DNA from: a virus
Length of the DNA: 41,601 bases
IMG/VR virus record: IMGVR_UViG_3300010354_000193
Location: 1-41,601 of that record
Strand: one strand, 5' to 3'
Position numbers and translations under genes: made by a program. This document shows positions 156 through 31,713 of this stretch, piece by piece. Every line of letters begins with the position of its first letter. Within the stretch, counting starts at the first letter, position 1. The notes under the pieces are model-generated. The model was not told where the DNA came from. It was given only the letters and a program-made list of their open reading frames with translations, and searched no databases.

Positions 156-908
156 ATGTCTGCTGCACGTCAACGTTACGAAGAACTGCTTCAACGTCCT
201 CAGATTCGTTCTCTGCTTAATACAATTCGCTATGCAGAGGGGACTCCAGGAGACTCTGGTTACCGTACCATGTTTGGCGGTAGCAAATTCGATGTATCTA
301 AAGGATGGCAACATCCAGACAAAGTTATTAGAAGTGGGGGTTATGCTAGTGCAGCTGCTGGCGGCTATCAGTATTTACCTGGTACTTGGCAGAGCGCAGC
401 AAAAGCACTTGCTTTACCTGACTTCAGTCCTAAATCACAAGACCTCGGGGCTCTTTATCTAATTGATAGACGAGGCGCATTAGATCCATTCTTAAAAGGA
501 GAAAAATTTGGAACTATTATTAACAAGCTTGCTCCAGAGTGGGCTTCACTGCCAACATCTGGTGGAGGGAGCTACTACGGGCAGCCTTCTAAACCACTCG
601 GTGACCTGTACAAGTACTACGAACAACAGAAACAACAGCTGGCAGGACAAGGTGTACCTGGCCAACAGCAAGCACAAGCACAACAACCAGAACAAACCAT
701 TGCTCAACAGCAAGGACAACCTGGTGTTCCAACGATTAACATTACCATTAATCGCAGAGGTCAAGGACAGCAACAAACAGATCCTGTTGTAGCTTTCTTA
801 GATCAGTTTAGGAAGTCTCGTGAGGAACGAGGTGCAATTCCTACTCCTTTGGAGATGGCACAAAACCTGGTCAATATTCCAAAGGTTGACTACTTCAACT
901 TAGGTTGA
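156..908 (+). CDS. GH104-type (lambda R-like) peptidoglycan lytic transglycosylase with C-terminal module
   Basis: Residues about 15-155 resemble the lambda endolysin family: the catalytic Glu lies in YAEGTPG (E28), followed by YASAAAGGYQYLPGTWQ, then DFSPKSQD and RRGAL and EWASLP, all hallmarks of this fold. These enzymes cut the MurNAc-GlcNAc glycan strand. A Gln-rich linker (about 155-195) follows, then a C-terminal module of about 55 residues ending MAQNLVNIPKVDYFNLG. The next gene, a different enzyme, ends in a similar module, so the tail may be a virion-docking domain. No signal peptide or membrane segment is visible, which fits either a holin-dependent endolysin or a virion-associated lysin. 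At 250 residues it is longer than lambda R because of the added tail. Confidence 0.85.
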   Translation: MSAARQRYEELLQRPQIRSLLNTIRYAEGTPGDSGYRTMFGGSKFDVSKGWQHPDKVIRSGGYASAAAGGYQYLPGTWQSAAKALALPDFSPKSQDLGALYLIDRRGALDPFLKGEKFGTIINKLAPEWASLPTSGGGSYYGQPSKPLGDLYKYYEQQKQQLAGQGVPGQQQAQAQQPEQTIAQQQGQPGVPTINITINRRGQGQQQTDPVVAFLDQFRKSREERGAIPTPLEMAQNLVNIPKVDYFNLG

Positions 909-925
909 TCTTTTAATTTATAACA

Positions 926-1603
926 ATGGCTGGTATTTTTTCTGCAGGTTATGTTGCAAGGCCAGGGGAAGATATTTTTCCTACTACTGGTCCGCATCTT
1001 GATGTCCGTGTTAAAAAAGCCGGCCAGTATATTGACCCCACAACTTGGCGTAGTGGTCTACAAAACTTAGTGATTGGTGAAAGCAAAGTTCCTCTTTTTC
1101 AACAAACAAAAGATGGATTTAAACCTTCTTTCCCAATCACTTCTCCATTTGGAAATCGTGTTGCGCCAACAGCTGGTGCTTCTACTTTTCATCGTGGCGT
1201 AGACTTTGGAATTCCTGGCGGCACACCACTGTATTGGAGAGGTGCAGGTGCTTTTAAACCGGGCAAAGGTTTAGGCACCATTCAAACACCAGAAGGTTAT
1301 GAGATTGAATTGCTTCATACTAAAGGTGGTAAAGAAGTTGCACTTGGAACTGAATCAGGCATGATGCAGCCAGCTGTTCCTACAGTTCAAGCTGCAAATA
1401 CACAAGGTCAAATCCCTACTCAACAACCGATCAATCTAGTTATTGATCTTGTAGAGGATGAACCACAGCAAAAAATTACACCTGATCAGATGTTAAAGAA
1501 CTATATTGTTGAACGGTTTGGTGCACCTAAACGGACTACATTCTCGCCAATTCAAATGGCGCAACAGCTTTTGAATACTGCTCCTGTTGATTACTTCGCA
1601 TGA
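926..1603 (+). CDS. M23-like peptidase (LytM type), possibly weakened, with C-terminal module
   Basis: Residues about 68-145 read like an M23 zinc metallopeptidase: ITSPFGNRVAP, then FHRGVDFGIPGGTPL containing the HxxxD zinc motif (H89, D93). The second zinc element normally has an HxH; here I see only ELLHT (H131), so a ligand may be missing and activity is uncertain. M23 enzymes cut peptide cross-links in the wall. The last 55 residues (QPINLVIDL to MAQQLLNTAPVDYFA) parallel the C-terminus of the preceding GH104 protein. The stop overlaps the next start (ATGA), so the genes are translationally linked. Together they form a glycan-plus-peptide wall-degrading pair. Confidence 0.75.
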   Translation: MAGIFSAGYVARPGEDIFPTTGPHLDVRVKKAGQYIDPTTWRSGLQNLVIGESKVPLFQQTKDGFKPSFPITSPFGNRVAPTAGASTFHRGVDFGIPGGTPLYWRGAGAFKPGKGLGTIQTPEGYEIELLHTKGGKEVALGTESGMMQPAVPTVQAANTQGQIPTQQPINLVIDLVEDEPQQKITPDQMLKNYIVERFGAPKRTTFSPIQMAQQLLNTAPVDYFA

Positions 1604-13035: not shown

Positions 13036-13039
13036 GTAG

Positions 13040-13112
13040 TACCCGAGGGCGGATTCGAACCGCCGCTGGAGGACTTTTAAGGTCCCTGTCTCTTCCGCTG
13101 GACTACTCGGGC
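13040..13112 (-). tRNA. tRNA-Leu(UAA)-like, short variable arm
   Basis: A 73-base cloverleaf fits on the minus strand: acceptor GCCCGAG/CTCGGGT (first pair G-U), a three-pair D stem (GTC/GAC) around a loop with GG, anticodon stem GGGAC/GTCCT with loop CTTAAAA (anticodon UAA), variable region CCAGC, and T arm GGCGG-TTCGAAT-CCGCC, discriminator A73. CCA is not encoded. The acceptor ends (GCCCG..CGGGT, G1-U72, A73) and anticodon arm resemble bacterial tRNA-Leu(UAA), yet the long class II variable arm is missing. It reads UUA, a codon used often in these AT-leaning genes. Confidence 0.85.
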
Positions 13113-13180: not shown

Positions 13181-13558
13181 ATGTTCCACAGTGAGAATGA
13201 TTTACTAGCTAACTTAATTGTTCTTAGTCCTAAGTGTGCTCGTAAAAAATTCCGTGAATCTATATTTGAAGCCTGGCATTACAAATGTGCTTACTGTGAA
13301 AAGCAACTCTGTGATCGTACCGCTACAATCGATCATGTTGTTCCTAAACATAAAGGTGGACATAGCACCCGTAATAATCTAGTTTGTTGCTGCACATCCT
13401 GTAATAAATCAAAAGCATCTGAGCTTCCCTTTATCTGGTTTACTGATAAGCACTCCTTTTATTCTGAGGAAAGAGCAAGTAAAATTAAAGAGTGGCTTGA
13501 GCAAAAACCACAGACTGTATCTCTATTTAACTTCTTAGATTCTGTTGTAACGGCATGA
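13181..13558 (+). CDS. HNH endonuclease
   Basis: 125 residues. CAYC (36-39) and CTSC (71-74) bind a structural zinc, DH (51-52) gives the first catalytic His, and HSTRNNL with CNKSK complete the HNH fold. Free-standing HNH nucleases in phages act as homing enzymes, packaging helpers or nicking enzymes. Upstream, TCCTAA/TTAGGA (13149-13167) can form a hairpin and a seven-codon reading frame starts at 13171, which might be a leader. The stop overlaps the next start (ATGATG). It lies beside the tRNA. Confidence 0.9.
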   Translation: MFHSENDLLANLIVLSPKCARKKFRESIFEAWHYKCAYCEKQLCDRTATIDHVVPKHKGGHSTRNNLVCCCTSCNKSKASELPFIWFTDKHSFYSEERASKIKEWLEQKPQTVSLFNFLDSVVTA

Positions 13559-13761
13559 TGGATATGGAACCCGCAACAGATCCACAAGATTTCCTGATGG
13601 GTTTTGCCAGACGCAAAGGCCTTATGGGTCAGCCTGATCCTGATGCACAAGTAGCTGAACTAAAGGCTGAGCGGATTCCTCCGTATCTCAAGATCATTGG
13701 TACTGGTATCCCCAGCATGGAGATCACTAGTAAGGAACGCTCTGCTAACTACTACGGTTGA
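13555..13761 (+). CDS. small protein, unknown
   Basis: 68 residues; start overlaps the HNH stop, with several in-frame ATGs (13555, 13558, 13564). The sequence (DPQDFLMGFARRKGLMGQPDPDAQVAELKAERIPPYLKI) is not recognised. The C-terminus is followed five bases later by a conserved basic phage protein, supporting translation. Confidence 0.65.
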   Translation: MMDMEPATDPQDFLMGFARRKGLMGQPDPDAQVAELKAERIPPYLKIIGTGIPSMEITSKERSANYYG

Positions 13762-13765
13762 TGCC

Positions 13766-14053
13766 ATGGCAGATCGAGCTAAAGCGCGCCAGCTAGCTAA
13801 AGATCGGATGGCCTGCAACAAACCACAACGTACACCTGGTCACCCGACTAAATCACATGTTGTCAAAGCATGTGAAGGCGGTAAAGAAAAGATTATCCGT
13901 TTTGGCCAACAAGGTGTTCAAGGTGCAGGTAAAAATCCTAAGAGTGCAAAAGAAAAAGCAAGGAAGAAATCATATTATGCTAGACATAACGCACAAGATC
14001 CAAACCCTGATAAAATGTCGGCTCGCTACTGGAGCCACAAAGTTAAGTGGTAA
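13766..14053 (+). CDS. conserved small basic phage protein (KSHVVKACEGGKEKIIRFGQQGV family)
   Basis: 95 residues from ATG 13766. The block KSHVVKACEGGKEKIIRFGQ, then GAGKNPKSAKEKARKKSYYARH and KMSARYWSHKVKW, belongs to a short, highly basic family that I recall in many marine and freshwater phages; its function is unknown to me. A longer in-frame opening from 13697 overlaps the previous gene and lacks the family pattern, so the later start is preferred. Nucleic-acid or virion association is plausible from charge. Confidence 0.75.
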   Translation: MADRAKARQLAKDRMACNKPQRTPGHPTKSHVVKACEGGKEKIIRFGQQGVQGAGKNPKSAKEKARKKSYYARHNAQDPNPDKMSARYWSHKVKW

Positions 14054-14058
14054 AACCA

Positions 14059-14517
14059 ATGGCTAAAGTAAAAATGGAACCTAAGGCAGTTTGTTACTGC
14101 CACCTTGTTCAGTTATTGCGTGATACATCGCATTTACTGAATCAAACTTATATTGTCCATTGGAATCTGATGGGCAGTAAGTTTTACTCCATTCATAAAC
14201 TCACAGAAGAGATTTATGAAGAGATGCAAGATGGCCTTGATACCATTGCAGAACATCTGCGCTCTCTTGATATCAGTACACCACTGAGCGTAGAGGATCT
14301 CAACAGTTCTCCGATGCCTCCAATCCCAGAGAGCTGCTTTGATCAAGATGGCATGATTCGTGCTTTAGCTATTAACCACAATGCCCTGGCGGAATCGTTT
14401 AGCCAGTTAGCAGAAGAAGCTGAGATCCTTAAGGATCAGTTGACCTTAGACTTAGCTGTAGAGCGTGGCCGTGCTCATAAAAAATTCCAGTGGCTTTTAA
14501 AATCTAACTTAGGTTAA
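14059..14517 (+). CDS. Dps-like ferritin
   Basis: 152 residues, the usual Dps length. HLLNQTYIVHWNLMGSKFYS, then IHKLTEEIYEEMQDGLDTIAEHLRSLD aligns with the Dps core. The ferroxidase ligand pattern of E. coli Dps (H51, H63, D67, D78, E82) is matched in spacing by H34, H46, E50, D61 and E65. Dps proteins form 12-mer cages that oxidise and store iron with peroxide and often bind DNA; the basic start here (MAKVKMEPK) could contact DNA. In a phage it might protect DNA from oxidative damage in an illuminated host or be packaged; both are inference. Sits between small basic genes. Confidence 0.8.
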   Translation: MAKVKMEPKAVCYCHLVQLLRDTSHLLNQTYIVHWNLMGSKFYSIHKLTEEIYEEMQDGLDTIAEHLRSLDISTPLSVEDLNSSPMPPIPESCFDQDGMIRALAINHNALAESFSQLAEEAEILKDQLTLDLAVERGRAHKKFQWLLKSNLG

Positions 14518-16386: not shown

Positions 16387-16677
16387 ATGGGATTTGCAAA
16401 GAGTCAATCTTACCTGGTTGACAACCGTTTTAGCCAGGCACAAGGTGTTGATGATAGCAACACCGGTCTAAATTTCTTGGGTAATTATATTCAAGCACGT
16501 AGTAGAGACGCTAAACTTCCGGTTACTTTTGAGCGTCAACAAGATGACCGCTTTATATTCCCAGCTCTTAGCGGCACTATCCCCTTCGGTGCATTACCTT
16601 TTGAGCCACGCGGTCCTTCCGGTATCGGCAATACTGACGGGTCTGCTTCTTTCCGCAATACTTTTAGGGCTCGATAA
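16387..16677 (+). CDS. single plus-strand island gene, unknown
   Basis: 96 residues, Phe/Arg/Gly/Asn-rich, probably disordered (RDAKLPVTFERQQDDRFIFPALSGTIPFGALPFEPRGPSG). It is the only plus gene between two minus-strand units, ending seven bases before the methyltransferase stop. It resembles neighbouring late-type proteins in composition. No domain recognised. Confidence 0.6.
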   Translation: MGFAKSQSYLVDNRFSQAQGVDDSNTGLNFLGNYIQARSRDAKLPVTFERQQDDRFIFPALSGTIPFGALPFEPRGPSGIGNTDGSASFRNTFRAR

Positions 16678-21928: not shown

Positions 21929-22774
21929 ATGGCTAGTCGCGGTCGGTGGGTTAACGTTCCTGGCAAAGGACGCCGGTGGCAACAACCTAGTGGCGAGTTA
22001 ATGATGACTCAACCGGGCTTCGGTCCTGGTCAATTTTTCCAAACTCGTGTTGGAGAAATTATTAATCCAATTAAAAATATTGCTTCTCCTGGCGGACCTT
22101 TACAAGGTTTTACTGATTTCCTAAATCGCAATCAAATTGGTACACGTGGTGCTAATGCTGCTGGTCGTGCACCAACTGATGCAGAATTGCTTGCAGAAGG
22201 ATATAGTCCACTTTCTGAAGAATTTAGTGCTGCTCGTAATAACCGACAGATTGTTCCTCCAGCTCCAGTGCTACCACCACCTGTAGTAATTCCAGCGGGA
22301 ACTGTTCAACCTGGAAATATTACAAAGGGCGTAACTTCTACTGGTGAGCTTGATCGTTCTCAAGGTGATGAGTACAAGTCGCAGATGGCGCAGTACCGCA
22401 ACCTGATCAACCAGAAAAAAACGCAGGAAGCTGAGGATCTGGGTATGCAGATCTGGATGCGGAAGTATGACAAGTCACCGATGGCCCAAGCCGGTGGTGC
22501 AATTGGTGCTTACAATCCATTGCTTGCTAGCATGTTCCCTGAAACCAAGGGTTTTGCTCCAGCTTTTGCTCCAGAACAAGAAGAAATCCAGATGGGTGAT
22601 TTAGGTACCCGTGCTCAAGGTGAGATGGGACCAACGATGGAGACCTTGAACCCGGTGGCAGCACAAGCACAGCAGCAAGCTGCTACTGCAGCACAGGCAG
22701 ATAAAGCAACCACCGCTGGTGTGAAGATCCCTGTACGTAACCGTGTTCAAGCCTTCCTGTACGGTGGCATGTGA
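21929..22774 (+). CDS. plus-island protein, low-complexity, possibly virion
   Basis: 281 residues. Basic, Gly/Pro/Trp start (GRWVNVPGKGRRWQQPSGE), a Pro-rich linker (IVPPAPVLPPPVVIPAG), a helical segment (YKSQMAQYRNLINQKKTQEAEDLGMQIW) and an Ala/Gln-rich end. The mix of short ordered helices and linkers is typical of minor virion or scaffold-like proteins. No domain recognised. Its stop overlaps the next start region (GTGATC). Confidence 0.65.
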   Translation: MASRGRWVNVPGKGRRWQQPSGELMMTQPGFGPGQFFQTRVGEIINPIKNIASPGGPLQGFTDFLNRNQIGTRGANAAGRAPTDAELLAEGYSPLSEEFSAARNNRQIVPPAPVLPPPVVIPAGTVQPGNITKGVTSTGELDRSQGDEYKSQMAQYRNLINQKKTQEAEDLGMQIWMRKYDKSPMAQAGGAIGAYNPLLASMFPETKGFAPAFAPEQEEIQMGDLGTRAQGEMGPTMETLNPVAAQAQQQAATAAQADKATTAGVKIPVRNRVQAFLYGGM

Positions 22775-22776
22775 TC

Positions 22777-23079
22777 ATGATGATGGATAATGATTTTCCA
22801 AATGCCTTAGGTTTTTTGCAGTCCTATAGCAAAGGATTATCACAATATCAACAAGAGGGTGAAAACATTCCTGATTTTGCTGTGCAAAACCAATATGCAC
22901 AGGAGCTTGGGGGTCCTTTAATTTCTAGGACTATTCGTTATTCTCCTCCAAACGCAATCATTAAAGCTCCTCATATTGATTCTCCTTACATGGAACAACT
23001 ATATGAACGTGGCTTTAAACCGTTAATGCCTCCTAAACCCTCTGGCCCAAGAGGTCCACAGTTACCTAGCTTTGTTTAA
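22777..23079 (+). CDS. plus-island protein, Pro-rich end, unknown
   Basis: 100 residues from the first of three ATGs; a GTG at 22771 inside the previous stop is also possible. Residues 1-60 are mixed (NALGFLQSYSKGLSQYQQEGENIPDFA), the end is Pro/Gly-rich (FKPLMPPKPSGPRGPQLPSFV). No family recognised. Lies between two plus-island genes with almost no gaps. Confidence 0.6.
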   Translation: MMMDNDFPNALGFLQSYSKGLSQYQQEGENIPDFAVQNQYAQELGGPLISRTIRYSPPNAIIKAPHIDSPYMEQLYERGFKPLMPPKPSGPRGPQLPSFV

Positions 23080-27733: not shown

Positions 27734-27973
27734 TTATGACTCTGTTTCTGATTGTAATTGCAGTGTTTCTTGGTACCGCGTGATTGACTTCTTAGCGGTT
27801 TCAAGATCCATGCCCCAGCATGGTTCCCAATCATATTCCTTAGAGGGGTAACGGTAGAGGACGTGGCCGGTTACACCGTGGCGCAGACATTCGATGGAGT
27901 AACCGTTGAACTCAATAGGTTCAAGAGGTTCAGATGGTTTACCACGGAAACGGATTTTAGTAGTGCGAGCCAT
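27734..27973 (-). CDS. small protein, unknown
   Basis: 79 residues. MARTTKIRFRGKPSEPLEPI, then GYSIECLRHGVTGHVLYRYP-type strands and a helical end (LETAKKSITRYQETLQ). Compact mixed fold. Lies five bases before the winged-helix gene, so probably its operon partner and first gene of the unit downstream of a terminator. Confidence 0.65.
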   Translation of the reverse strand: MARTTKIRFRGKPSEPLEPIEFNGYSIECLRHGVTGHVLYRYPSKEYDWEPCWGMDLETAKKSITRYQETLQLQSETES

Positions 27974-28006
27974 AGAAAGTTCTCAACGCTACTAAGTTAG
28001 CGCATA

Positions 28007-28043
28007 TAAAAAGCAGATCAACCAGGTAAGTGATCGATCTGCT
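28007..28043 (-). terminator. rho-independent terminator for the repeat-protein gene
   Basis: On the minus strand, AGCAGATC (28043-28036) pairs with GATCTGCT (28019-28012) around 16 bases, followed by a TTTTT tract (28012-28008) and ATA. It lies 28 bases after the stop of the 929-residue gene and separates it from the next minus unit. Confidence 0.75.
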
Positions 28044-28070
28044 AATTTAACTAACTTTTAAAGATAAACC

Positions 28071-30860
28071 TTAGCGTCTTCTAAGAGTTGACCTTGTGGC
28101 AGGTTTTTTCTTAGGAGGTTGTTCTTTGGGTGGTTGGTTCTTGGGAGGTTGTTCTTTAGGTGGTTGGTTCTTAGGAGGTTGTTCTTTAGGAGGAATCACC
28201 GTTTCCTTAGGACCTTGGTTTTTAGCTCCTTGATTTTTAGCTGTAGGTGTTTTAGGTGCAGGTGGTTTAGGAGTTGCAGCTGCTTTGGGTGCAGTTGTTT
28301 TAGAAGGTGAAGTTGCCCTGGTTACAGGCGCTCTAGAAGGGACAGCTGTTTTAGAAGGTGCAGTTTTAGAACTTTGATTTTTACTTGCTTGGAAACGAGG
28401 TGCACTTACGCTACCGCGTTGAGTAGTAGCTGATTTATTTGGGCTTTGTTTAGGAGCTTGGCTCTTAACGGATTGTCCAACATTGGTTTGTTTTTTAGGA
28501 GCCTGGTTGTTAGCACCTTGCCTTTTTTGTGCCTGGGCTTTATTACCCTGACGCTTATTACCTTGTCCTTTTTTATCAGGACCACCAAGAATTGGCGGTA
28601 ATTGAGGTTGATTTTTTGAACCCTGGCCTTTCTGACCTTGGCCTTTCTGACCTTGGCCTTTCTGACCTTGGCCTTTACGACCTTGACCTTTGCGACCTTG
28701 CTCTTGACGGTTTTTGTTCTGGTTGCGTTGATTTCGACCTTGAGTACCTTCTTGAGGTGTATCAGTAAGAGGTTGACGTTCTTGTTGAGCTTGTTCTCGT
28801 CGAGCACGAGCATTTGCAAGTGCTTCTCTAGGATCAGTAGTAGAAGTTGCACCTGAAGTACTCCCAGCACCACTAGAAGACGAACTACCACCAGCACTAG
28901 CTGAACCAGCAGTGCTGCTAGAAGGAGCTTCATCAGCAGGGATTTCTTCGCTAGGAATTTCTTCACTAGGAATTTCTCCACCAGCAATTTCTTCAGTAAA
29001 ACTTTCTGAAGGAGCGCTTTCTTCAGTAGATCCTTGAGAAGATTTAGGAGGAGCTTTTGGAGCAGGTGTTTTAGGTGCCGGCCCTTGGTTTACGGGTTCA
29101 GGTGAACTGGTATCACCGCGGCTTACACGACGACGTGCTTGAGCAGCAGCTAAAGCAGCAGCAGCATTGCTACCACCTGCCTCACGCTGTTCTTCTGCTG
29201 AGAGAAGACCTTGGATACCAAAACCACCACCACGTGTTGTTTGTTCTCTAGCCGCTGTTGTTGCTGCTGTTGTTGCTCTTGCTTCTGCTGTTGCTGCTGC
29301 TGGAGCAGGAGTAGCGCGAGCAGTTTCTTGCTTAACTACTTCAGATTTAGTTGAAGTTGTAGCAGCTGGTTTAGATTCTTCAACAAAACTACTTAGGAAC
29401 TTTTCAGCAGCTGGAGCGGGCTTTTCAGGAGCCGCAACAGACTGTTGAAGAGTTAAAGGAGCTTGCTCAGCAACTGGAGCAGGTTTTTCAGAAACAGTTT
29501 CTTGACGAGCTGGAGTTGATTCTTTAGGAGTTTCTTGAGCTGCCGAAATAATCGGAGTAGCTTGTTCAACAAACTTATCTAAGAATTTTTCAGCAGTTGG
29601 GAGAGTTGGTTCTTGAATTTGCTCTTGACGAGCAGCTTCTTTAGGTGCAGGTTGCTGAACAACTGTGGTCAACTCTCTAGGAGCAGTTTCCTGAAGAGTT
29701 GTTGTTGCTGGTTCTTTAACAGGTTCTTGAGTTGCTGGAACAGTTTGAACAGTAGGAGTTGTTTGTTCAACAAATGTGTTTAAGAACTCTTCTGGACTTG
29801 GAACTTGTTGTTTAGGAGCTGGAGGTTCTTCTTTAGGAGTTGTTTCCTTAGGAGCTATTTGCTGAACAGGAGGTTGCTGAACAGGAGGTTGCTGAACAGG
29901 AGGTTGCTGAACAGGAGGTTGTTGAACAGGAGGTTGCTGAAGAGGTGCTTGTTGAACAGGAGGTTGTTGAACAGGAGGTTGTTGAACAGGAGGTTGCTGA
30001 AGAGGTGCTTGTTGAACAGGGGGTTGTTGAGAGGGTACTTGTTGTGTAACCGTGTTTGCAACATTGTTAATTTGCTGGTTACGACCTTGACCTTTACGAC
30101 CTTGACCTTTGCGACCTTGACCTTTTTCTCCTTGAGCCTTAGGACCAGGAGTACCAAGTATTCCAGGTAGACCAGCTTCAGTTTTAGTACCTTGACCTTT
30201 ACGACCCTGACCTTTACGACCCTGGCCTTTTTCTCCTTGAATTTTTGGACCTGGCGCAAGCGGAGCTGCAACTTGAACCTGTGAAATAGGTTGTACTACA
30301 GGCGGTTGTGCAACCTGAACTTGTGGAACAGGTTGTGCTGCAGGTGCTTCTACAGATTGGAATTTTGGAGGAGGTGTTATAAAAGTTTCTATATCTGGCC
30401 TTGAGATAACAGGAGTCTTAAATCCTTGGTCAATTGTTTTAGGTGGTAAAACAAACTGATCTCTAGCTTGAATAGGAACAACAGTAACGCCGGTACTAGG
30501 ACCTTTAGGTGAAGGACCTTTTGGAGCAACAGCAGTTTTAGGAGCCCTAGGAGCCCTGGGACTTTTTGGACCAGCGCTTGTTTTAGGAGATCCTGCAGCT
30601 CTAGGAGCCCTAGGAGTTGCTTGACTCTTAGGACCTGCAGAAGTTTTAGGACTCCTAGAAGCTTTTGGACCAGAACTAGTTTTAGGAGATGCTACGGGTT
30701 GCTGTTTAGGAGCTTGTAAGGGAAGCGGATCTAAAGGTCTTGCTTTTGGAGCCGGTGCAGGAGCAGCTGCTTTTGGGGGAGGCCCTTGCTGAGAAGACTT
30801 AGACGGCGGCGGATTATTACCGCCTCCGCCCCTTCCACCACCGGATGATCTTGGAGGCAT
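28071..30860 (-). CDS. 929-residue disordered repeat protein (SPKT, GQGRK, PPVQQ, FLxxFVE blocks)
   Basis: Almost wholly low-complexity. In order: Gly/Pro/Lys N-terminus with repeated [13 protein letters not shown] units like histone H1 tails (about 60-125); [13 protein letters not shown] blocks twice (about 210-270); eleven [10 protein letters not shown] pentapeptides from a 15-bp DNA repeat; three spaced helices [26 protein letters not shown] and [13 protein letters not shown]; an acidic stretch ([14 protein letters not shown]); a second [11 protein letters not shown] block; and a basic Pro/Lys tail with [10 protein letters not shown]. No Cys or Trp stands out. Charge blocks of opposite sign plus helices suggest a scaffold, condensate former or DNA-condensing virion protein. 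No enzyme domain is visible. Confidence 0.85.
28619..28705 (-). repeat. GQG(R/Q)K-coding tandem repeat, downstream block
   Basis: Five to six units of about 15 bases (plus-strand pattern GACCTTGGCCTTTCT) code for (K)GQGQ/GQGR repeats inside the 929-residue protein. The same pattern recurs at about 30070-30140 and 30188-30240 and, in diverged form, in the plus gene at 32795. Slippage or recombination between copies should change length. Confidence 0.75.
29859..30023 (-). repeat. 15-bp minisatellite, 11 units ([10 protein letters not shown])
   Basis: Eleven tandem 15-base units (plus-strand consensus TTGCTGAACAGGAGG), coding PPVQQ or APLQQ. APLQQ units at the second and sixth positions, reading with the protein, show a higher-order 60-base unit. 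Near-identity indicates recent expansion and probable length variation. Confidence 0.85.
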
Positions 30861-30940
30861 AACAACTATAAATGATTGCCATACCTACTCTATCAAATAT
30901 TTTGTTAGTCCTCTTAATAACCCTAGTAAATAACAGGTAT

Positions 30941-31465
30941 TTAAGACTTATTTTTTTCTTTACGAGTTGCTGCACGGGAGTTTAAAATGCTTGCTGCTTC
31001 TGCACGTTTTAAACCTTTCCTGCGTGACATTTGAATAACACGATTTGCTCGTTTATAGTTTGGTTCATTACCTCCTTCACCCTGATTGGTAGCATTTTTG
31101 CGATTACCGTAGCGAAGAACACCACGTGCTTTACGACGATCTAAACCAAGTTCTTCTTGTAGATTTGCAAGACGTTCTGCGCGTGCAGCACGACGATCTA
31201 AGATAGCTTGTTGAGCCTCTTCTTCGCTCATTCCTGTGTTTGCAATCTGGCGTTCAACCCGTTGTGAGAAGATGCTACGATCTGGATCCATATCCCGACG
31301 TAATAACCGCTCAACAGGAGCAGATTGACTTACAACTGGCGTAGTAGTTGCAAGAACTTCATCTGCAAATTCAGGAGTAACACGAGACGTTGTGTTAGTA
31401 AAAAGATCTAATAACTCATCAACTTTATTTTGTAAGAAATTACGAGCACTGGGATTAAGTTCCAC
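30941..31465 (-). CDS. basic helical protein, unknown
   Basis: 174 residues from a GTG. Opening PSARNFLQNKVDELLDLFTN echoes the FLxxFVE helices of the neighbouring repeat protein. The middle has EEEAQQAILDRRAARAERLANLQEELGLDRRKARGVLRYGNRK, and the end RVIQMSRRKGLKRAEAASILNSRAATRKEKNKS, all Arg/Lys/Ala helices. Highly basic, no Cys. Possible DNA-binding or virion-internal protein encoded next to the repeat protein; function not established. Confidence 0.65.
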   Translation of the reverse strand: MELNPSARNFLQNKVDELLDLFTNTTSRVTPEFADEVLATTTPVVSQSAPVERLLRRDMDPDRSIFSQRVERQIANTGMSEEEAQQAILDRRAARAERLANLQEELGLDRRKARGVLRYGNRKNATNQGEGGNEPNYKRANRVIQMSRRKGLKRAEAASILNSRAATRKEKNKS

Positions 31466-31485
31466 AGGTAATAAAAATATTTTTA

Positions 31486-31713
31486 TTATTCTATCAAGTC
31501 TTCGTGCCAGCCTTCTTTTAGATAACCGTAGTCACGAGCTTGTGTTACGGATTTTTTTTCAGCACAGACGCCACACTTTCCATTGTGGAAGGTAGCACAG
31601 TGTTTAATTGGTCCAGAATATTTTCCTTCATCCCACCAAAGACCCCATTGTCTACCACATTCTGTGCATACCCAATCAGGTTGCAAGAAGTCAAGTGGCT
31701 TATGAGTTTTCAT
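31486..31713 (-). CDS. zinc-ribbon-like protein
   Basis: 75 residues. WVCTECGRQWGLWWDEGKY and HCATFHNGKCGVCAEKKSVT carry CxxC ... CxxC plus His, a likely zinc ribbon. I recall the GKCGVC..E/KKSVT.(P/A)RD(F/Y)GYL pattern from small phage proteins. The protein may bind nucleic acid or a polymerase. Downstream of an overlapping pair of small genes. Confidence 0.75.
   Translation of the reverse strand: MKTHKPLDFLQPDWVCTECGRQWGLWWDEGKYSGPIKHCATFHNGKCGVCAEKKSVTQARDYGYLKEGWHEDLIE

Follow-up and report, generated by a model that had tools for sequence, protein, structure and literature searches.

A giant basic disordered protein of an S-EIV1-like cyanophage bears three copies of a short motif that recurs across its phage group

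Results

A giant open reading frame within the early block

The window (the whole stretch of DNA that was analysed, 41,601 nt) encodes on its minus strand a basic, disordered protein of 929 residues, here called P0001, together with the features collected in Table 1; open reading frames are mechanical calls. Judged by its genes, the window holds part of the genome of an S-EIV1-like Synechococcus phage (cyanophage). The PrimPol-D5 primase encoded here shares 36% identity, over 98% of its length, with the enzyme of Synechococcus phage S-EIV1 and 89-94% identity with those of several IMG/VR contigs, which reach 83 kb, and homologous primase, tail/hydrolase and replication genes, along with many families, are common to the window and S-EIV1-like phages. 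For early and replication genes the minus strand predominates, and for late genes the plus strand; P0001 belongs to the early block. A capsid protein, a portal-like protein and a large terminase were identified by PHROG matches in the relative G008; no gene for any of the three was found in the 41,601-nt window. The window also holds a tRNA-Leu (taa) gene (13039-13112, minus) and a gene (14047-14517, plus) whose S-EIV1 homolog carries the annotation DNA-binding ferritin-like protein and stands, in S-EIV1, on the opposite strand relative to the capsid gene.

Table 1. Coordinates of P0001, its parts and the other features discussed, in window positions.
Feature	Position	Strand	Remarks
Basic disordered protein ORF (P0001), 929 aa	28071..30860	minus	counterpart: ortholog L004:5402-7756 (784 aa)
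Leader directly 5' of P0001 start codon	30867..30894	minus	26/28 bases identical to ortholog
K/P/A-rich arm with SPK/SPKT	30486..30692	minus	
GQGRK blocks (n=2)	30079..30230	minus	
PPVQQ minisatellite	29859..30030	minus	15-nt unit, 11.5 copies; non-exact units are variants, e.g. APLQQ
FL motif copy 1, FLNTFVE, residues 359-365	29766..29786	minus	AF2: helix
FL motif copy 2, FLDKFVE, residues 426-432	29565..29585	minus	AF2: helix
FL motif copy 3, FLSSFVE, residues 488-494	29379..29399	minus	AF2: helix not predicted
Conserved 35-residue core, residues 544-578	29127..29231	minus	AF2: helices flanking/around
Acidic segment, repetitive	28938..28995	minus	
Block with 15-nt unit	28620..28700	minus	
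C-terminal repeat array	28108..28193	minus	
Intrinsic terminator-like hairpin 3' of P0001	28012..28043	minus	ortholog also trailed by similar stem
Basic protein, 174 aa, same slot as P0001	30941..31465	minus	relatives: near-identical contig only
Basic GQGRK-rich protein, 254 aa	32795..33559	plus	252 aa in L004
Lysozyme-like hydrolase	156..908	plus	C-terminal module with FLDQF
M23-type hydrolase	926..1603	plus	same C-terminal module; MLKNYI, YLKNYI in relatives
68-aa carrier family, DPQDFLMGFARR	13555..13761	plus	FLDRYI, FLKSFV, FLDDFI in relatives
96-aa carrier, TGLNFLGNYIQARS	16387..16677	plus	F and L invariant, 10 aligned members
102-aa carrier, NALGFLQSYSKG	22771..23079	plus	F and L invariant, 9 aligned members; N-terminus MDNDFP

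P0001 contains no tryptophan, cysteine, tyrosine or histidine and a single methionine, and has a net charge of +57. An earlier note on this DNA had described the ORF with its correct limits and length, leaving the strand unstated, and had depicted a disordered protein with GQGRK blocks and an acidic segment. That picture holds: GQGRK occurs five times exactly (GQGxK 11 times), residues 601-700 have a net charge of -10, and the protein falls below the charge-hydropathy boundary. Both AlphaFold models are of low confidence and are usable for disorder and local helices only; in the AlphaFold2 (AF2) single-sequence model of residues 340-600, the mean pLDDT was 52 and helices were confined to FL motifs 1 and 2 and the surroundings of the 35-residue core. 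The note's eleven PPVQQ units are found if the variant units of the minisatellite are included, the exact pentapeptide being present nine times. Its SPKT/SPK motifs are likewise present (four SPK, three SPKT), while their likeness to histone H1 is compositional only; an H1 identity was dropped, histone and winged-helix models in Pfam and NCBIfam giving no match. A second, independent contig (99.92% identity across 14.3 kb) encodes the same 929 residues, and the ORF with its repeat array is therefore not a single assembly error.

A conserved core amid diverged repeats

A single diverged ortholog was found, in IMG/VR contig 3300007542_000127, where it is syntenic and sits, as P0001 does, between the zinc-ribbon gene and a gene for a 79-aa protein. 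The two proteins have a K/G/Q-rich composition in common, whereas most of the remaining sequence is unalignable, and P0001 has three copies of FLxxF[VI]E where the ortholog has one (FLDNFIEE). Within the 35-residue core, 33 of 35 residues are identical, and the codons differ by at least 12 silent changes versus two amino-acid changes. Over the 46 codons that were compared there are 14 silent and 11 residue-changing differences, only two of the 11 falling inside the core. This comparison indicates that the core is under purifying selection, and a core that is kept while repeats diverge is, on the same codon evidence, what a functional disordered protein with fast repeat turnover would display. 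Rapid length change through the minisatellites, as the earlier note had suggested, is plausible given orthologs of 784 and 929 aa with unalignable repeats; the one other P0001 allele, however, has the same length of 929 aa.

The same comparison bears on whether P0001 might be a near-neutral repeat protein that arose by replication slippage and has no specific function, as could be supposed from the minisatellites all along it, its absence from most relatives and the bulk of sequence that cannot be aligned with the ortholog. The ORF, however, is uninterrupted in two distinct genomes, and the leader, the terminator stem and the FL motif are all kept in the ortholog. Because the core is also conserved, with its excess of silent over amino-acid changes, this reading is disfavoured and we consider it very unlikely.

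The slot after the zinc-ribbon gene (window 27973-31486; L005-L020) encodes a basic protein, of 52-929 aa, in every close relative examined, and several of these proteins are not clearly related to one another in sequence. Since most close relatives are without the giant protein, P0001 is dispensable for the phage group; these other close relatives have in its place a small basic ORF of 52, 58 or 121 aa beside the zinc-ribbon protein. Homology between P0001 and the small basic ORFs was dropped, no alignment being clearly above shuffles. Traces of duplication or insertion next to the 174-aa gene were limited to a 12-nt repeat, and that idea was dropped as well. GQGRK clusters are confined to the two distinct genomes with the giant protein and the near-identical copy of the present contig. 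The 254-aa GQGRK-rich protein has a conserved ILTExAxNxxGG stretch, is encoded by a late-strand gene inside the early block, and co-occurs only with the giant protein.

Homology searches were in keeping with the earlier note's description of a modular scaffold unlike known phage proteins. An HMM search of PHROGs returned no family for P0001 at E 0.01, and there was no match in NCBIfam, among PDB chains or in 50,697 phage records. The sole Pfam match was Extensin_1 (PF02095), whose proline-rich low complexity aligned weakly at 39 bits; an extensin identity was dropped, this score being far under the curated cut-off of 105 bits and reflecting a match of proline-rich composition, not homology. 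In viral contigs the 35-residue core was found as the two known alleles and nothing further, and it was found in none of 84,980 genomes, a search in which low-complexity filtering could mask weak relatives. P0001 is a genuine ORF that is conserved within a small subclade and has no known relatives outside it, and it bears a motif that recurs in the group.

The FLxxYΦ motif in unrelated proteins

The three FLxxFVE segments of P0001 lie 67 and then 62 residues apart, close to the interval of about 60 given in the earlier note, and at the DNA level they form a diverged 43-nt repeat with 70-79% identity. A scan of eight genomes of the group revealed that the wider motif F-L-x-x-[YF]-Φ recurs in unrelated proteins. 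The motif is a short one, tuned on the same data that served to test it; counted with polar residues required between, it was present in 16 of 407 families. With one representative per family, 15 carried the motif versus 2.5 expected by shuffling (maximum of nine across 300 shuffles), and the independent families number about 14 once a match in an antisense ORF is removed and P0001 and its ortholog are taken as a single family. At other spacings matches were near zero, and six control phages gave two matches in about 90,000 residues. A leave-one-family-out profile recovered 20 families at >=11 bits against a shuffle mean of 5.6. Six more distant contigs that lay outside the motif definition gave 11 matches at the right spacing versus 0-4 at others, a set that is only partly independent since the matches are largely in homologous families. 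Carrier instances were on the late strand in 25 of 30 cases, compared with 47% of ORFs overall. In the literature searched, nothing matching a phage short-motif loading code of the FLxxYΦ type was described.

The spacing of hydrophobic positions in the motif (i, i+1, i+4, i+5) is natural in an amphipathic helix, and its recurrence could in principle be a by-product of such helices in small proteins, uninformative about the function of P0001. Speaking against this are the near absence of the motif from control phages and at other spacings and the invariance of F and L, which very few other columns share, in two small carrier families (96 and 102 aa), both of which span distant relatives; we regard a by-product as improbable. 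The earlier note was right to single out the FLxxFVE helices, but its suggestion of a binding partner among the neighbouring basic proteins needs revision: because the peptide recurs across the phage group, it looks like a common docking tag and not a private link to those neighbours.

Individual carriers of the motif

The N-terminus of the 102-aa carrier resembles that of the major capsid protein, MFIDNDFPKLLG (capsid gene G008:C1:17723-18865). The pattern D[NS]DFP is found at equal offset in carrier and capsid protein in all three genomes that have both (G002, G005 and G008), and apart from one chance internal match it is restricted to these two families. It is possible, judging from this shared stretch, that the 102-aa carrier mimics the capsid N-arm.

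A common module of about 55 residues, INIxI - FLxx[YF] - MAQ - [ND]YF, is found at the C-terminus of both the lysozyme-like and the M23-type hydrolase (hhalign probability 96%), and G006 encodes two further hydrolase-like proteins with a similar tail, one of them at G006:C1:31896-33344.

Several other carriers are of note. An S-EIV1 protein annotated as sulfate adenylyltransferase (L028:17153-18622; also G007:C1:8572-10137) has no Pfam match and bears FLTNYL near its N-terminus; the annotation of L028:17153-18622 is doubtful. In G008, a 223-aa protein (L035:19000-19671) encoded between the portal-like and capsid genes ends in FLRSFVQQIGQN, with a C-terminal FLRSFVQ. A scaffold whose coat-binding helix is the motif was considered and dropped, the protein having a zincin-like HELGHQ and hydrophobic segments. 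G008 also encodes two low-complexity early-strand proteins (L037:18475-19944), with N-terminal FLNRYI and FLDKYL, that are unique to it.

Discussion

EPYC1-type and PYCO1-type pyrenoid linkers and the carboxysome protein CsoS2 are long disordered chains with regularly spaced short binding helices or stickers, which dock multivalently and are poorly conserved between species. P0001 is like them in being disordered and in carrying regularly placed FLxxFVE segments as putative docking helices, whereas PDB and family searches gave no sequence relation to EPYC1-like or Rubisco linkers. Arms rich in lysine, proline and alanine and containing a few SPK motifs make P0001 reminiscent of the tails of linker histone H1, but it is without a winged-helix domain or family match, and SPK occurs just four times in 929 residues. 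In phage T4 the capsid-targeting sequence (CTS) occurs once, at the N-terminus, and is cut off by the prohead protease. T4 internal proteins are a diverse set whose shared part is the CTS only, and they are DNA-associated, with lysine contacts to DNA (PMC3012670). The likeness to the present group lies in a short peptide common to about 14 otherwise unrelated families. The differences are that FLxxYΦ may be internal, N-terminal or C-terminal, is unlike the CTS in sequence, and is present in three copies (residues 359-494) in P0001; moreover, T4 CTS proteins are in the virion and protease-cleaved, whereas for P0001 a place in the virion is a prediction. By analogy, P0001 would combine short-peptide cargo loading with a multivalent disordered linker, both of kinds already known.

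We favour, at a probability of roughly 0.42, a reading in which P0001 is a multivalent disordered linker whose FL helices dock to a common virion or prohead component while its basic arms bind DNA. According to this model, the three FLxxFVE helices would be copies of a short docking peptide that is used on many unrelated, mainly late, virion-type proteins and that binds one such common component. The K/R-rich SPK, GQGRK and KNQ arms would bind phage DNA, as the net charge of +57 suggests. Several weak contacts made by each chain would bring P0001 into the prohead, where it would compact DNA or tether it to the shell. It is the late-strand carriers, the shared hydrolase module and the capsid-like MDNDFP, taken together, that lead us to read FLxxYΦ as a putative virion-docking signal, and we infer that P0001 is present in the virion. 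P0001 probably binds DNA while attached, by repeated docking, to a common component of the virus. With less assurance, it may tentatively be proposed that S-EIV1-like phages have a new virion-loading code, in which FLxxYΦ at the N-terminus, at the C-terminus or in the middle of a protein serves for capsid docking and on which P0001, a multivalent linker that binds DNA, is based.

Against a virion role, the gene for P0001 is on the early/replication strand, away from the structural genes. Because of this early strand, an early role inside the cell has to be taken seriously as a competing explanation, if on balance a somewhat unlikely one: P0001 might organise phage DNA or replication proteins as a scaffold resembling a nucleoid or a condensate, to which the FL helices would recruit a phage protein. 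Its gene is flanked by genes of the replication module and lies on their strand, the protein is strongly basic and disordered, the slot encodes a small basic ORF by the zinc-ribbon protein in all close genomes examined, and the two additional FL-motif proteins of G008 are early-strand products of the same module. Other FL-motif proteins, however, are mostly encoded on the late strand, a related element is found in peptidoglycan hydrolases, whose site of action is the cell envelope, and the slot proteins have no significant sequence similarity to P0001.

The T4 comparison also brings up a protein directed at the host after injection or within the cell, acting as a nuclease shield, in anti-restriction or in interference with the host nucleoid, for which the FL motif would serve only for loading into the particle or for contact with a host factor. 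The T4 internal proteins, a diverse set with defence functions, have only the capsid-targeting sequence in common (PMC3012670), and the patchy distribution of P0001 resembles theirs. Yet P0001 is of low complexity throughout, with neither a globular domain nor similarity to a known inhibitor, and we think such a role improbable.

If the reading of P0001 as a multivalent linker on a virion-loading peptide is true, a widespread and poorly annotated cyanophage lineage would possess a cargo-loading peptide of its own, in principle a counterpart of the T4 CTS. The motif would then provide a handle on more than 12 small proteins of no assigned role and predict which of them enter the virion, and P0001 would be an instance of a phage protein with the build of a pyrenoid linker, being disordered, basic and multivalent.
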